From Pseudomonas sp. ACM7 (GTDB lineage Bacteria; Pseudomonadota; Gammaproteobacteria; Pseudomonadales; Pseudomonadaceae), in the NCBI RefSeq assembly GCF_004136015.1, contig NZ_CP024866.1, positions 4,224,529 to 4,288,528 of the forward strand: a stretch of 64,000 bases of DNA, in the 5' to 3' direction. Positions 391 through 63,620 of the stretch are shown piece after piece. Within the stretch, counting starts at the first letter, position 1, and every line of letters starts with the position of its first letter. A program made the translations under genes and the position numbers. A model generated the notes under the pieces. It was not told where the DNA came from. It did no database searches and was given only the letters and a program-made list of their open reading frames with translations.

Positions 391-496
391 CGGCCTCATC
401 GCGAGCAAGCTCGCTCCCACAGTTGATCTCTGCTGGTCATCAATATTGTGTTCACCCTAGATCCCCTGTGGGAGCGAGCTTGCTCGCGATGAGGCC
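391..496. repeat. REPIN (two inverted REP sequences, GTGGGAGCGAGC family)
   Basis: Two copies of the Pseudomonas REP palindrome face each other, GCGAGCAAGCTCGCTCCCAC at 401-420 and its reverse complement near 469-488, with a roughly 50-bp spacer. The flanking CGGCCTCATC is also inverted at the far end (GATGAGGCC). The pair lies between the oprD start and the efflux operon terminator. Apart from this repeat and the terminator, the 132-570 gap holds no gene I can support; it should contain the oprD promoter, which I could not pinpoint. Confidence 0.85.
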
Positions 497-10695: not shown

Positions 10696-10703
10696 ACCCC
10701 TTG

Positions 10704-10793
10704 AGGGAGCGGGCTTGCTCGCGAAGGCGGTGTATCAGTCAACATCAGTGTTGGATGACAGACCGCCTTCGCGAGCAAGCCCGCTCCCACAGG
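10704..10793. repeat. REPIN (GGGAGCGGGC family) between acpH and olsA
   Basis: GGGAGCGGGCTTGCTCGCGA from 10705 is repeated inverted at about 10771-10790, with AAGGCGG/CCGCCTT inner extensions. It fills the convergent gap between acpH and olsA and may act as a weak terminator or mRNA stabiliser. Confidence 0.85.
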
Positions 10794-13396: not shown

Positions 13397-13488
13397 CCCC
13401 TTCGCGAGCAAGTCGAATCGTCGCACCGCCGCTCCCACATTTTGAAATGCATTCCCCTGTGGGAGCGGGCTTGCTCGCGAAGGCGGCC
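13397..13488. repeat. REPIN with one interrupted arm
   Basis: The right arm (about 13455-13486) is a normal GTGGGAGCGGGCTTGCTCGCGAAGG element. The left arm (13401-13439) is the same palindrome split by about 16 extra bases (TCGAATCGTCGCACCG) between GCGAGCAAG and CGCTCCCAC. The same interrupted form recurs, inverted, at 60270-60300. Confidence 0.82.
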
Positions 13489-34005: not shown

Positions 34006-34100
34006 CCCCTGTGGGAGCGGGCTTGCTCGCGAATGCGGTTTGACATTCAGCATTGATGTCGACTGACACGCCGCCTTCGCGAGCAAGCCCGCTCCCACAG
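34006..34100. repeat. REPIN (GTGGGAGCGGGC family)
   Basis: CCCCTGTGGGAGCGGGCTTG begins at 34006 and its inverted partner ends with CCCGCTCCCACAG at 34100; the spacer is about 45 bp. It lies between the lyase and MFS genes and may uncouple their expression. Confidence 0.85.
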
Positions 34101-57098: not shown

Positions 57099-57192
57099 CC
57101 TGTGGGAGCGAGCTTGCTCGCGATAGCGGACTGTCAGACAACATGGTTTTTGCCTGTTAGACCGTCATCGCGAGCAAGCTCGCTCCCACAGG
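57099..57192. repeat. REPIN (GTGGGAGCGAGC family)
   Basis: CTGTGGGAGCGAGCTTGCTC from 57100 and its inverted partner ending CGCTCCCACAGG (57192) leave a spacer of about 45 bp. It lies downstream of the allophanate hydrolase gene and upstream of the cyclase gene. Confidence 0.85.
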
Positions 57193-57205: not shown

Positions 57206-58984
57206 TCAGACAAGGCTTCTCAGATACGCACGCCATCCGCCCAGATGGCTGATATTGGCTGCCCCCTCCAACCCATACGCCTCACAAATAAACCCACTCT
57301 CCCAACGCCCATTCGCCAATTGCACTTTGCCCAACCCTAGTGGCGCCGGAATACCGGTCAAAAACGAGCCCAACTCACGGCTCGGCAATTCCCAAACCTC
57401 CACTGCAATCGCCACACCCCCGTCCTTCACGCGAACCATCCCGGGACGAAACGGCGGGCCGCCAGCCAGGGCATACAGTTGATAGTCCGGCGAGCTGAAC
57501 GTCGTCTCGACCCGTCGAGCCCCGCGCTGCTTGAGCTGCCAGTTCAGCGCCAGCCCATCCAGATGCGCGCCACACACCACCAATCGCGCCCGGTCATTAC
57601 GTGCGACAGCCGACGGAAGCGGTGTCGCCAAACCTTGCTGGCGCTGCAACGCATCCGCCACACCCAACAAATACTGATCAGTAAACGCCCGTCCGAACAA
57701 CGTCACGCCCCAAGGCAAACCATTGCCCATGAAGCCGCTGGGCACGGCGACGGCGGCGTAATCGAGCAGGTTCATGAAGTTGGTGTAGTAGCCCAGTTCC
57801 GAATTGCGCAGCACCGGTTCGGCATCCAGTTCCGCCCGCGTGACGGGGCGGCCGATGGTGGGTGTGAGCACGCAGTCGAGGCCTTCCAGCGCCTGGTCGC
57901 ACAGGGCTTTCAGCGCTTGCAGCCGGTACTGGGCGCGGAAGGTTTGCACACCGTTCACCGCTGGAGCCTTGGCCAGCACCGCGCGAATCACCGGCAGCAC
58001 AGCTTCTGGATTTTTCTCCATCAACTCACCGGCCACGCTGTAGCGCTCAGCCACCCAAGGCCCTTCATAGAGCAACCGCGCCGCTTCGAGAAATGGCGAC
58101 AAATCCAGTTCCACGGCTTCACCGCCCAAAGCCTTGAGCTGATCGATGGCATCACCAAACAACAACGGGCCTTCAGGGCAGCCGAAGAACTTCAGATCCT
58201 GAGCACGCGGCACGCCGAAGCGGAAGGGGCGTGGTGCACCAAACGCCGAGCCGTCATTCCACAGCGGATTACTGCGGCTGTATTCATCAAGGGGATCAAG
58301 GTGCGCAGTGAGCGCGAGCAACTGACTGGCTTCCCGAGCAGTCGCGGTAAACGTGGTCACGCAATCGAGGGTGCGGCAGGCCGGAACCACACCCGCTGTA
58401 GAGATCAATCCTTTAGTGGCTTTCAACCCCACCAGATTGTTCAGCGCCGCCGGCACGCGCCCGGAACCCGCCGTGTCAGTGCCCAGGGAAAAACTCGCCA
58501 CGCCGAGCGCCACCGCCAGCGAAGAGCCGGCACTGGAACCGCCCGACGGATACTCCGGCAACACGCTGTTCGGGCACGCGCCATACGGTGAGCGACTGCC
58601 GTTAAGCCCGGTGGCGAATTGATCAAGATTGGTCTTGCCCAACGGAATCGCACCCAGCGCCAGCAATTGCTCGACGATGGTCGCCGAACGTTCCGGCACG
58701 TAGGCAAACGCCGGGCACGCCGCGGTCGTCGGAATGCCCGTCAGGTCGATGTTGTCCTTGATCGCGAACGGCACGCCGAACAGCGGCAAGCTGTCGGGGT
58801 CGCGACCGTCGAGCGCGGCAAGGTACGGTTCCAGTTCTTCAACACTGAGCAAGTGGATGAACAGGTGATAATCCGGGTTCAGCGCAGCGGCTTTGTCGCG
58901 CAGGTTCAGGAGCAGTTGCCGAGGTGTGATGCTGGCGTCGCGATAGGCGTTGCGCAGGGCATCGAGTTGCAGATTGATGTTCAT
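57206..58984 (-). CDS. atzF: Allophanate hydrolase
   Basis: This 592-aa enzyme hydrolyses allophanate to ammonia and CO2. The N-terminal amidase-signature domain has FAIKDNIDLTG (catalytic Lys), GGSSAGSSLAVALG and LGTDTAGSGRVPAALNNLVGLK (the Ser-cisSer pair and oxyanion loop). A separate C-terminal domain of about 150 aa (RLVVCGAHLDGLALNWQL onward) is the one that handles the N-carboxylated intermediate. AAGGA precedes the ATG at 58984; an ATG at 59005 and a TTG at 59017 overlap the upstream stop region. It is the last gene of the carboxylase operon. Confidence 0.9.
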   Translation of the reverse strand: MNINLQLDALRNAYRDASITPRQLLLNLRDKAAALNPDYHLFIHLLSVEELEPYLAALDGRDPDSLPLFGVPFAIKDNIDLTGIPTTAACPAFAYVPERSATIVEQLLALGAIPLGKTNLDQFATGLNGSRSPYGACPNSVLPEYPSGGSSAGSSLAVALGVASFSLGTDTAGSGRVPAALNNLVGLKATKGLISTAGVVPACRTLDCVTTFTATAREASQLLALTAHLDPLDEYSRSNPLWNDGSAFGAPRPFRFGVPRAQDLKFFGCPEGPLLFGDAIDQLKALGGEAVELDLSPFLEAARLLYEGPWVAERYSVAGELMEKNPEAVLPVIRAVLAKAPAVNGVQTFRAQYRLQALKALCDQALEGLDCVLTPTIGRPVTRAELDAEPVLRNSELGYYTNFMNLLDYAAVAVPSGFMGNGLPWGVTLFGRAFTDQYLLGVADALQRQQGLATPLPSAVARNDRARLVVCGAHLDGLALNWQLKQRGARRVETTFSSPDYQLYALAGGPPFRPGMVRVKDGGVAIAVEVWELPSRELGSFLTGIPAPLGLGKVQLANGRWESGFICEAYGLEGAANISHLGGWRAYLRSLV

Positions 58985-59009
58985 CGCGTTAATCCTTTTC
59001 AACATGGGT

Positions 59010-62000
59010 TCACTCAAGTTCCAGCACCACGACGCGCTGTCCGGCGCGCACTGCCGAACCCGGTTGCACGCGAATCTCGCGCACCACCCCGGCCATAGGC
59101 GCGAGCAGCGGGATTTCCATCTTCATCGACTCCAGAATCACCAGCACATCACCCGCGGCAACCCGGCTACCGGTTTCAACCTGAACCTGCCAAAGGTTGC
59201 CGGCGATGTGGCTGTCGACGCTCTGTTGACCGCTGGCCAACGGCGCGTCTTCGGTCACCTCCGGGGTCAGCTCTTCACTGTCGAAATGCGCCTGGCCACT
59301 GGCGATCCAGCGCTCGCGCTCGGCGTTGAATGCACCTTTTTGCTGATCGCGAAACGCGGCAATGCTCTCGGCTTCCTTCGTCAGGAAGGCTTGGTAATCC
59401 GCCAGATTCAGCTGACTGTGCTCGATATTCAGATCGAAGCGCCCGAGTGGGAAATCCCGTCGAATGCGCAGCAGTTCATCGGCACTGACCGGGTAGAACC
59501 GGATCTGATCGAAGAAGCGCAGCAGCCACGGTTTGCCATCGAATGCGGCGACCTCGCGATAGCGATTCCACATCTGCAAAGTGCGGCCGACGAACTGATA
59601 ACCGCCAGGGCCTTCCATGCCGTACACGCACATGTAAGCACCACCGATGCCCACCGAGTTTTCCGCGGTCCAGGTGCGGGCCGGGTTGTACTTGGTGGTC
59701 ACCAGGCGATGCCGCGGGTCGAGCGGCGTGGCCACCGGCGCACCGAGGTAGACATCGCCCAGGCCCATCACCAGGTAGCTGGCGTCGAATACGGTGCGCT
59801 GCACTTCGTCGAGGTTTGGCAGGTCGTTGATGCGGCGGATGAACTCCAAGTTGCTTGGGCACCACGGGGCGTCCTTGCGCACGGTGGTCATGTATTTTTC
59901 GATTGCCAACTGACAGGCCGGGTCGTCCCAGGACAACGGCAGATGGACGATGCGCGAGGGCACTTGCAGGTCCCTTGCGGCGCACACAGCGTCCCATTCG
60001 CCGGCGACGATGCCGAGCAGATCGGCCAGCGGCAGTTGTTCGGGTTGGTAGTGCACTTGCAGCGAGCGGATGCCGGGTGTCAGGTCGATGACGCCGTGCA
60101 GGTTTTGGCTTTCCAAGGCTTGCATCAGGGCGTGGGCGCGGAAGCGCAGGACGAGGTCGAGTTCGGGGGCGCCGATTTCCAGCAGCAGATGAGTGTCCCC
60201 CGACAATCTCGCGACCAGCCGTGTATCGTCCTGACCAATATCCAACACCACCGGCGACACAATCCCCTGTGGGAGTGGCGGTGCTACGATTCGACTTGCT
60301 CGCGAAGAGGGCGTGTCAGTCGACATTGATGTGTCTGACATACCGCTTTCGCGAGCAAGCCCGCTCCCACAGGGGGTATTCCATTTCAAGGCGAGGTTGC
60401 GGGCGGTTTTGAGATCGACCGGTTGGAACTGCACTTTATCCCCAGCCTTGAGCTGCCCAAGCTGCCAGAGGTCAGCTTCGATCACCGTCACCGGGCAGAC
60501 AAACCCGCCGAGACTAGGGCCGTCGGGGCCGAGGATCACCGGCATGTCACCGGTAAAATCCACCGCCCCAATGGCGTACGGATTGTCATGAATATTCGAC
60601 GGATGCAGACCCGCCTCGCCACCATCGGCACGCACCCATTCAGGCTTCGGCCCAATCAACCGCACACCGGTTCGGCTGGAGTTGAAATGCACTTCCCAAT
60701 GAGTGGCGAAGAAGGTGCCGATGTAGTTTTCGGTGAAGTATTCCGGTGCGCCATGAGGGCCGTAGATCACCCGGATCTGCCGCAGAACGGGCAACTCGGT
60801 GACCTGTTCTTCAGCCAGTTGTTGACCGGCACTGCGGTCGTTCAAAGCAGGGAGATGCAACACGTCGCCGGCTCGCAACGCACGACCACCATGCCCACCA
60901 AACTGGCCGAGGGTGAAGGTGCTTTTGCTGCCCAGATAGTCTGGAACCTGAAGGCCACCGCGCAGGCACAAATAACTGCGAGCGCCTGCTCCAGCAATCG
61001 TGCCGAGGCTCAAAGTCGCCCCCGCCGGAACCAGCAGTGCGGTGTTCATCGGTACGGTTTCACCGTTTAGCGCCAATGGAATCATCGTGCCTGTGACCGC
61101 CACCACCGCGTCGCAATTGAAGCGCAGCAGCGGCCCGCTCATGGTGATTTCCAGCGCCGCTGCACCTTCATCGTTGCCCAGCAGACGATTGCCAAAACGC
61201 AACGCGCGACTGTCCATTGGCCCTGACGGCGGCACGCCCACTGCCCAATACCCAAGACGACCCGGATAGTCCTGAACGCTGGTCTGAGTCCCGGCACTGA
61301 GCACTTCAAACGTGTTGGTCTGATACACCAAACCTTCCAGGCAACGGGTCCACGGCTGACCGCTGGCGAAGGGCACATCGAGCAGAATCTGCCGCAAATA
61401 GTTGCGGTTGGTTTCCACTCCGTAGAGCAGGCTGTCGCCCAACGCCTGATGCAGATCGGCAGCGGCTTCTTCACGGGTCGGCGCCCAACTGATGACTTTG
61501 GCGATCATCGGATCGAAGTACGGTGGGATCTCGCAACCGGCTTCAACCCACGTGTCGATACGCAAGTGTTTGCCATCGGCGGCAGGGAAGTTCACGGCGG
61601 TCAGCAAGCCGGGGCTTGGCTGAAAATCGCGGCCCGGATCTTCGGCATAGAGCCGTGCTTGAATCGCATGACCATCGGCTTTCAAACCTTGGCTCAACGT
61701 GCTCAACGGTGGCAAATCACCCGCCGCCAGTTCGACCATCCAGCGCACCAGATCCACACTCCAGACTTGCTCGGTGACGCCGTGCTCCACCTGCAAACGG
61801 GTGTTCACTTCGAGAAAGTAGAAACGCTGATCCTCGCTGTCGAAAACGAATTCAACGGTGCCGGCGCTGCGGTAATTCACCGCTCTCGCCAGTTTGATCG
61901 CCGCCGCACACAGCGCCTCGGCCATGCCCTCGGGCAGGCTCGGCGCCGGGGTTTCTTCGAGGACTTTCTGGTTGCGGCGCTGAACCGAGCAGTCGCGCAC

Positions 62001-62672
62001 GCCGAGGGCAATCACTTCGCCCCGGCCGTCGCCGAACACCTGCACTTCCAGATGTCGGGCGCGCTGGATGTACTTCTCGATGAACACCCCGGCGTCGCTG
62101 AAGTTGTTCTGGCCGAGGCGCTTGACGGCCTCAAAGGATTCGCTCAACTCGGCCGCACTGCGACACACGCGCATGCCGATGCCACCACCACCAGCGGTGC
62201 TTTTGAGCATCACCGGGTAGCCGACCTGTTCGCCGGCAATCAGCGCCGCGTCGAGGCTGTCGAGCAACTCGGTGCCTTCGAGCATCGGCACGCCGTGTTG
62301 CTTGGCCAAGGCGCGCGCGGTGTGCTTGAGACCGAACACTCGCAGCTGCTCTGGCGTCGGGCCGATGAAGGCGATGTTGGCGGCTTCGCACGCTTCGGCG
62401 AACGCGGCGTTTTCCGAGAGAAAACCGTAGCCGGGATGGATCGCCGTGGCGCCGGTGGATTTGGCGATGGCGAGGATTTTTTCGACGGCCAGATAGGTGC
62501 CGGCGGCTGCGCCTTCACCGAGACTGTGGGCTTCATCGGCTTGCAGGATGTGCAAACTGGCGGCATCGGCTTCGGAGTAAACGGCAACGCCCTGGACCTG
62601 CAACTCACGCAGGGTGCGCAGGATGCGACAGGCAATGGCGCCACGGTTGGCAATCAGGACTTTTTCGAACAT
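59010..62672 (-). CDS. Biotin-dependent urea/guanidine carboxylase
   Basis: This 1220-aa multidomain enzyme carboxylates urea or guanidine with ATP and bicarbonate. The domains are biotin carboxylase (about 1-450; MLKSTAGGGGIGMRV loop), carboxyltransferase A/B (about 470-760; TSVQDYPGRLGYWAVGVPP), carboxyltransferase C/D (about 805-1080), and biotinyl carrier (about 1150-1220; ILESMKMEI, biotin Lys). Residues about 766-803 are REPIN-derived and fall at the linker between the carboxyltransferase halves; the frame is kept, with no stop. The two DUF1989 genes upstream favour guanidine as substrate. Because linkers tolerate length changes, the enzyme could remain active. Confidence 0.9.
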   Translation of the reverse strand: MFEKVLIANRGAIACRILRTLRELQVQGVAVYSEADAASLHILQADEAHSLGEGAAAGTYLAVEKILAIAKSTGATAIHPGYGFLSENAAFAEACEAANIAFIGPTPEQLRVFGLKHTARALAKQHGVPMLEGTELLDSLDAALIAGEQVGYPVMLKSTAGGGGIGMRVCRSAAELSESFEAVKRLGQNNFSDAGVFIEKYIQRARHLEVQVFGDGRGEVIALGVRDCSVQRRNQKVLEETPAPSLPEGMAEALCAAAIKLARAVNYRSAGTVEFVFDSEDQRFYFLEVNTRLQVEHGVTEQVWSVDLVRWMVELAAGDLPPLSTLSQGLKADGHAIQARLYAEDPGRDFQPSPGLLTAVNFPAADGKHLRIDTWVEAGCEIPPYFDPMIAKVISWAPTREEAAADLHQALGDSLLYGVETNRNYLRQILLDVPFASGQPWTRCLEGLVYQTNTFEVLSAGTQTSVQDYPGRLGYWAVGVPPSGPMDSRALRFGNRLLGNDEGAAALEITMSGPLLRFNCDAVVAVTGTMIPLALNGETVPMNTALLVPAGATLSLGTIAGAGARSYLCLRGGLQVPDYLGSKSTFTLGQFGGHGGRALRAGDVLHLPALNDRSAGQQLAEEQVTELPVLRQIRVIYGPHGAPEYFTENYIGTFFATHWEVHFNSSRTGVRLIGPKPEWVRADGGEAGLHPSNIHDNPYAIGAVDFTGDMPVILGPDGPSLGGFVCPVTVIEADLWQLGQLKAGDKVQFQPVDLKTARNLALKWNTPCGSGLARESGMSDTSMSTDTPSSRASRIVAPPLPQGIVSPVVLDIGQDDTRLVARLSGDTHLLLEIGAPELDLVLRFRAHALMQALESQNLHGVIDLTPGIRSLQVHYQPEQLPLADLLGIVAGEWDAVCAARDLQVPSRIVHLPLSWDDPACQLAIEKYMTTVRKDAPWCPSNLEFIRRINDLPNLDEVQRTVFDASYLVMGLGDVYLGAPVATPLDPRHRLVTTKYNPARTWTAENSVGIGGAYMCVYGMEGPGGYQFVGRTLQMWNRYREVAAFDGKPWLLRFFDQIRFYPVSADELLRIRRDFPLGRFDLNIEHSQLNLADYQAFLTKEAESIAAFRDQQKGAFNAERERWIASGQAHFDSEELTPEVTEDAPLASGQQSVDSHIAGNLWQVQVETGSRVAAGDVLVILESMKMEIPLLAPMAGVVREIRVQPGSAVRAGQRVVVLELE
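60264..60376. repeat. REPIN inside the carboxylase coding sequence
   Basis: CCCCTGTGGGAGTGGCGGTG begins the left arm, which carries the same 16-bp interruption as at 13397-13488. The right arm is the normal GCGAGCAAGCCCGCTCCCAC ending at 60376. On the minus strand it is translated in frame as GSGLARESG...PPLPQG, the peptide expected from REP DNA. Confidence 0.85.
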
Positions 62673-62798
62673 GGCATAACCCCTGGAGGCGATAACGCAT
62701 CAGCCTCGACCTGGGATGCGGGCCGTCCCGCAGTTTTTCGATAGGCGCCAGGGTCGTCCCCGACGGCAAAAACAGTTCGCTTCAAACCACCGCGTAAC

Positions 62799-62891
62799 CC
62801 TGTGGGAGCGGGCTTGCTCGCGAAGGCGGAGTGTCAGTCGACATTAATGTTGAATGTGACGGCCCCTTCGCGAGCAAGCCCGCTCCCACAG
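62799..62891. repeat. REPIN (GTGGGAGCGGGC family) upstream of the carboxylase
   Basis: CTGTGGGAGCGGGCTTGCTC from 62800 and the inverted GCGAGCAAGCCCGCTCCCAC ending at 62891 sit inside the 306-bp gap between the DUF1989 gene and the carboxylase gene. The gap has no other gene. The hairpin could lower read-through from the upstream genes. Confidence 0.85.
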
Positions 62892-62978: not shown

Positions 62979-63620
62979 TCAGTTCCATACCAGCAGCTCC
63001 GCAGGGGTGGGGTTATAGGCATTGCATGGATTGTTCAGTTGCGGGCAGTTGGAGATCAGCACGATCACGTCCATCTCGGCCCGCAAGTCGGCGTATTTGC
63101 CCGGCGCCGAAATCCCGTCTTCAAACGTCAGCCCGCCATCCACCGTGACCGGTACGTTCATGAAGAAGTTGATGTTCGGCCCGATGTCGCCCTTGCCCAG
63201 TCGTCCATCGTGAACGCAGGCCCGCAGGTAGTTGTCGCGGCAGCTGTGCATGTAGCGTTTCTCCAACGCGTAACGCACGGTGTTGCTCTCTTGTGCGCAG
63301 GCGCCGCCGAGGGTGTCGTGACGGCCGCAGGTGTCGGCGACGATGGTCAGCATCGGCTTGCCGAGGTTGGAATAAAGCACGCTGCCGGTGCTCAGGTAGA
63401 CGCTGTTCTGTCGGCGCAACGTGCGTTGCACGTCGTAGCGCTCCTTTGGGTTGGCAACGCTGTAGAACAACGTGTCGACAGCCTGATTGCCTTCCAGATC
63501 GAGGATGCGCAAAGTCTGGCCAGCCTTGACTTCCATCAGCCACGGTTCGCCGGCCGGGATGGTGGCGCGGTAGACCGCAGCTTCTGGATGCTTTTGAGCG
63601 TTAGCGATTGCGAGTGACAT
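62979..63620 (-). CDS. cgdB: DUF1989 protein, urea amidolyase-associated protein 2 / carboxyguanidine deiminase subunit
   Basis: This 213-aa DUF1989 protein contains [47 protein letters not shown] with likely metal-binding Cys and His, and [21 protein letters not shown]. Members of this family next to urea carboxylase genes were later shown to form a carboxyguanidine deiminase (CgdAB). The gene is 11 bp after the second DUF1989 gene, so the pair is one unit. The A/B label follows gene order and is tentative. Confidence 0.8.

Follow-up and report, generated by a model that had tools for sequence, protein, structure and literature searches.

Small palindromic repeats probably harboured and exchanged in a coding linker of the Pseudomonas guanidine/urea carboxylase

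The REPINs of SBW25 consist of two inverted REPs and a loop, are associated with RAYTs and reach a high copy number, and they are primarily extragenic (Bertels and Rainey 2011; extracts of PMC3116915). The window, by which we mean the whole stretch of 64,000 nucleotides that was analysed, contains a 113-bp element that is likewise built of two inverted REPs and a loop and lies in coding sequence: positions 60264-60376 are read in frame as predicted residues 766-803 of a 1220-aa carboxylase. This raises the question of how such an element came to lie within an enzyme gene, and whether its presence is a peculiarity of this one gene or a property of the site.

The host gene matches its family over the full length and in the expected domain order, with 1888.8 bits against the TIGR02712 urea_carbox model (cut-off 1303.85). 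The gene, its two carboxyltransferase domains and its neighbours are the following:

59010..62672, minus strand: guanidine/urea carboxylase of 1220 aa (biotin carboxylase, CT_A_B, CT_C_D, biotin carrier), from the open reading frame, TIGR02712 and Pfam
60420..61241, minus strand: CT_A_B domain, residues 478-751 (Pfam PF02626)
59550..60209, minus strand: CT_C_D domain, residues 822-1041 (Pfam PF02682)
62718..62765, minus strand: Guanidine-II riboswitch a short way upstream of the carboxylase (46.3 bits to Rfam RF01068, against a gathering score of 32)
57206..58987, minus strand: allophanate hydrolase, the next gene downstream (TIGR02713, Pfam Amidase and AH_C)
62979..63620, minus strand: DUF1989 / urea amidolyase associated protein UAAP2, upstream (PF09347, TIGR03424)

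Given the riboswitch and the allophanate hydrolase and DUF1989 neighbours, guanidine carboxylase is the likely function, and this sequence context suggests guanidine rather than urea as the substrate. The database name of the product is urea carboxylase.

The sequence-only reading described a complete paired REP, free of stops, at a domain linker of this protein. An outer inverted repeat (arms 60264-60285 and 60354-60375) is indeed nested with an inner one (arms 60295-60319 and 60335-60359), the frame 59010-62672(-) runs uninterrupted through both over its 1220 codons, and the translated repeat occupies the linker that leads from CT_A_B to CT_C_D. One correction is that one of the two arms is a longer variant. 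The parts of the element are:

60264..60376, minus strand: REPIN, in frame, residues 766-803 (from the inverted repeats, the dispersed copies and the position between CT_A_B and CT_C_D)
60349..60375, minus strand: 5' REP arm with respect to the coding strand, family A (GTGGGAGCGGGCTTGCTCGCGA, 0 mismatches at 60349-60370)
60319..60336, minus strand: loop between the two inner arms, limits approximate (from the inverted repeats)
60264..60318, minus strand: 3' REP arm with respect to the coding strand, a variant longer by 15 nt; the arm is of the ordinary kind in the related locus L061 (from comparison with this relative)

The family A arm is present in the window's genome in 536 and 550 copies with at most two mismatches, together 1086 arms, and the reversed control yields 0. 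The best other full-length copy of the window REPIN is 91% identical over 107 bp (40 of 709 candidates scored). By structure and copy number the element is a REPIN, one arm of which is the longer variant, and it is found in an unusual place, inside a TIGR02712 gene instead of the usual extragenic location. Five other paired REPs occur in the window (399-489, 10703-10790, 34011-34098, 57102-57189 and 62802-62889), as does a single REP arm at 13459-13480. Three Y1_Tnp matches were found in the genome, one of them inside an open frame of 164 aa with family A REPs on either side. This Y1-transposase match, in L269 (about 1501-1752), is a candidate RAYT for the family A REPINs, and its frame could provide the enzyme for an exchange of repeats.

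The first alignment of the carboxylase showed other REP translations at the same place in relatives, and in a collection with one genome per species such translations at this site were also found in P. frederiksbergensis, P. mandelii, P. lini, P. kilonensis, P. syringae and P. avellanae. We searched 249 genomes, an even sample of the genus Pseudomonas, for orthologs, using as query the stretch downstream of the linker because a query containing the insert would bias the search. An ortholog is present in 132 genomes, the window's own included, and the linker is readable in 130 of these. Outside this set are G058, whose linker was not caught by the pattern and is plain by eye, and G196, in which a break of the frame inside its linker splits the gene into two frames (L233). 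At least one of 14 palindromic motif groups is found in 108 of the 130 linkers. The motif groups were compiled from these very linkers, and therefore control windows elsewhere in the same genes matter; the same rule labels 1 of 1039 of them. A test that makes no use of families, requiring a score of at least 13 for the best inverted repeat, is passed by 84 of the 130 linkers and by 0 of 1298 control windows. Chance palindromes are rejected by both comparisons. A lone insertion in the window's gene is rejected as well: relatives carry repeats in their linkers too, and the site is recurrently occupied, with its content exchanged, in much of the genus, which the sequence-only reading had missed.

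The linkers without a motif tend to be shorter. Between the anchors there are 57-87 residues (median 73.5) in the 22 unlabelled linkers, among them a clade of ten that are all short, 78-355 (median 93) in the 108 labelled linkers, and 99 in the linker of the window. The expectation that close relatives would show a gap of about 38 residues holds only in part, given that the insert is not extra to all of them and most orthologs carry repeat motifs of their own. What would have spoken against an insertion, repeat-free relatives with a native linker of equal length, is not seen among the unlabelled Pseudomonas linkers. Beyond the genus the length comparison is closer, as distant homologs with linkers that are plain by eye reach 79-87 residues; these are L049-L052, four sequences from other families within the order, and L057-L059, three paralog-like ones that are 52-53% identical. 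Some linkers in the genus hold half-elements (G159 and G223) or what resemble collapsed stubs (G032 and G163). In six loci (L211, L239, L251, L253, L256 and L260) we observed another palindrome, translated as ...PSPQPSP..., whose stems are unlike REPIN arms. A member of the short-linker clade of ten, G009 (L054), has 1365 family C arms in its genome and a linker without a repeat match.

The repeats that occupy the site belong to several types. One REP type is represented by groups A, A2, B, C and their kin, which differ little from one another; the stems of groups I and J are unlike that type, and group E agrees with the GIII core of SBW25, GAGGGAGCTTGCTCCC (extracts of PMC3116915). Changes were counted on a quick maximum-likelihood tree built from the flanks alone, in which 38 of 127 branches are open. 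Presence of a repeat requires 9 changes (18-22 in 100 shuffles), and all labels together require 67 (87-99). Motif group changes 61 times over the 108 occupied rows, against 70-82 when shuffled, so that its phylogenetic signal is only partial; in this count several of the 14 groups are close variants, and mixed elements are labelled by their first arm. Among the 11 closest occupied pairs, whose flanks are at most 6% apart, the motif group differs in 8 and agrees in 3; differing pairs include G034/G118 (C and B), G253/G103 (A and E) and G222/G083 (I and J). In the pair alignment of G103, the apparent right end of an older REPIN remains behind the family E element. The locus L061 and the window share the 5' arm and the loop with 2 differences, and the 3' arms differ, being ordinary in L061; of the 29 other REPINs that match best in the window's genome, 21 have the longer arm as well. 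One asymmetric loop is found in both orientations (17 versus 9 linkers), with 7 changes on the tree, and the REPINs in the linkers are read in several phases. Because phase and loop orientation vary, no peptide is conserved, and selection for a particular peptide is rejected, the motif groups varying too.

If residents are replaced from within the same genome, then the family in the linker should tend to be one that is abundant elsewhere in that genome. We counted the arms of four of the 14 motif groups (A, C, B and I) over 80 genomes chosen to span the linker types; the reversed control was 0 throughout. Genomes with a family A linker have a median of 612 family A arms versus 1 in the rest (Mann-Whitney p 4e-6), and the corresponding medians are 725 versus 0 for family B (p 1e-7) and 295 versus 0 for family C (p 2e-6). 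Within the 42 fluorescens-type genomes alone the association persists (p 4e-5, 8e-5 and 2e-5 for A, B and C). Family I arms number 28-137 in all six genomes with a family I linker, and are also found in 9 genomes without one. The linker family is usually abundant in its own genome for the four families counted, yet it tops the A, B and C arm counts in only 21 of 28 genomes. In G234 (L174) the linker has two perfect family C arms and the genome as a whole has 3, so that this is possibly an imported or relict element. For the window's element the best copy in its own genome scores 149 bits and the best copy in 19 relatives 146 bits (G120); an intragenomic source of this particular element is therefore not proved.

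The repeats found in the linker are largely those that leave the protein readable. Under one REPIN rule applied to 75 named loci and the window, 38 of 40 REPINs in linkers fall into one length class, which was taken from the linkers, and leave the used frame open, versus 20 of 55 elsewhere (Fisher p 1.8e-9). Downstream of linkers as different in length as those of G212 and G114 (176 and 355 aa), the two genes differ at 5 first, 4 second and 44 third positions over 300 codons. Third positions differ about five times as often as the first or second, or more, in each of the eight pairs that were compared (lowest ratio 52 to 11). This excess indicates that the downstream half is kept by selection, most simply as one read through the linker, and the protein downstream of the linker is under purifying selection in these pairs. 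The claim that a coding REPIN is unusual holds up. Among the 30 best-matching REPINs of the genome, 2 lie in open frames of at least 50 codons on both sides; these are the linker copy and L026, where the frame seems to come from wrongly extending a gene at its 5' end. Outside the linker, 5 of 55 REPINs have at least 80 open codons on both sides, and by eye these five look antisense or spurious; REPINs close to the edges of genes would escape both counts. In SBW25, 14 of 1067 REP 16-mers overlap genes (extracts of PMC3116915).

In the P. syringae group the linker contains tandem in-frame REPINs, about eight units in G114 and five in G232. Among 120 matches listed of 8000 in a protein search, proteins of 1260, 1296, 1332, 1368, 1404 and 1476 aa hold 2, 3, 4, 5, 6 and 8 units, a step of exactly 36 residues per unit among these matches, where other length series with other offsets are present as well. 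The arrays in L230 (G114), L220 (G232), L228 (G212) and several of P0136-P0217 constitute a length-variable coding repeat. Some of the long forms, with extra Pfam hits to PF14162 or PF13412, carry the name 5-oxoprolinase/urea amidolyase family protein.

We consider it likely that the linker between CT_A_B and CT_C_D is a coding harbour for REPINs and small palindromic repeats, whose content is exchanged in place. The linker would tolerate almost any sequence, so that in-frame arrivals would not be removed, and the reading frame of the enzyme would act as a sieve on arriving repeats; the effect of the insert on the enzyme is most likely close to neutral. A structure model of residues 455-1076, built with 23 sequences, is poor (mean pLDDT 55.7) and gives a hint that the linker is disordered: residues 765-800, one of several low stretches, have a pLDDT of about 28 and no predicted secondary structure, whereas the blocks preceding them are at 80 and 73 and those following them at 80 and 84. 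From the tree it appears that a resident REPIN would raise the odds of the next change, and the end products point to possible routes, namely insertion of a REPIN into a REP, exchange of an arm with genome copies through gene conversion, and tandem copying. A further step, which we offer as a tentative reading and hold with rather less assurance, is that the linker has become a self-renewing landing pad, in which the resident REPIN serves as target and template for whichever family is currently active, and which in the P. syringae group has turned into a growing coding minisatellite with as many as eight REPIN units.

Could the insert instead be kept because its hairpin is useful, slowing ribosomes or shielding the mRNA between separately folding domains? 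The sequence-only reading had raised an effect on mRNA folding, and the predicted hairpin has a very high stability (-64.4 kcal/mol); its z is -8.5, where two stretches elsewhere in the gene have z 0.5 and 1.2. Long palindromes in 84 linkers, the conservation of presence on the tree and the replacement of palindromes by others with unlike stems all agree with a useful hairpin. However, REPINs are hairpins anyway and conserved hairpins are therefore expected without selection; moreover, the 22 linkers that match no repeat motif, including the entire short-linker clade, speak against it, as do the half-elements and apparent collapsed stubs. We regard this explanation as unlikely. We think it unlikely, too, that the switching of families reflects short allele tracts imported from other species through homologous recombination in the flanks. 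Import would account for the linker family of G234 that is almost absent from its genome, and copies of the window element in relatives are about as similar as those in its own genome; on the other hand, the linker family tracks abundance in the own genome, L061 and the window keep one arm and the loop where the other arm differs, and the element in G103 seems to have remains of an older one beside it.

Drift of a single ancestral REPIN by point mutation is very improbable. The ends TGTRGGAG...CTCCYACA and the insertion point are common to many linkers of the fluorescens group, as such descent would predict, but the unlike stems of groups E, I, J and F at the site, the occurrence of both loop orientations and of tandem arrays, and the agreement of the linker families with the abundant families of each genome all argue against it. 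We give least credence to an artefact of assembly or annotation. Repeats are commonly misassembled, and the broken frame in G196 might be taken as an example; against this, the window's genome was assembled as one contig, the same pattern recurs in 108 of 130 genomes, and neither the filtering by frame nor the purifying selection downstream fits an artefact.

A coding harbour for exchangeable repeats has partial precedents. Rickettsia palindromic elements (RPEs), too, are small palindromic repeats in frame within genes of working proteins (extracts of PMC3733652), with the difference that RPEs are found in many Rickettsia genes, whereas here one linker accommodates many families within one genus. 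RPEs carry a CGTC tag at one end (extracts of PMC3733652). The window's element does not have the RPE sequence; its ends are CCCCTGTGGGAG...CTCCCACAGGGG and its arms match Pseudomonas family A, so that it behaves as RPEs do without belonging to them. Closer in kind are the GTAG/CGTC REPs, which also lie inside coding regions and for which positions in loops or flexible linkers have been suggested; for recB, Di Nocera et al. (2013) describe different REPs at about the same site in X. campestris and X. oryzae (extracts of PMC3733652). Two species are concerned there, in contrast to the 108 of 130 orthologs here, with switching, arrays and apparent scars. The main text of PMC3733652 has no match for carboxylase, urea or allophanate, and its supplementary gene list could include the gene. 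The enterobacterial RU elements are likewise small mobile repeats, whose open frames have been fused into annotated genes, but as separate cases in different genes and not at one recurrent site (Delihas 2007; extracts of PMC2759123). Within the terms tried in the open-access literature, we found no paper on REPs in this carboxylase, and a coding site that many families recycle in most of the orthologs of a genus, with arrays and apparent scars, was not found in the literature searched. In-frame palindromes in genes are known; a single coding site recycled in much of a genus would, as far as this literature goes, be new.

In our view the turnover of REPINs is hard to follow because most copies are intergenic and align poorly between species. 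The carboxylase linker is one orthologous site whose flanks are firm and which lies in a reading frame, and it appears to record arrival, exchange, change of arms, amplification and loss; with this record across the genus, models of REPIN turnover and of RAYT specificity therefore become directly testable. At this site a conserved enzyme receives protein sequence from selfish DNA, although no peptide is fixed, and the P. syringae group gains a strain-variable coding repeat. If the linker is indeed a self-renewing landing pad, then part of a conserved metabolic enzyme would be repeatedly overwritten by mobile DNA.
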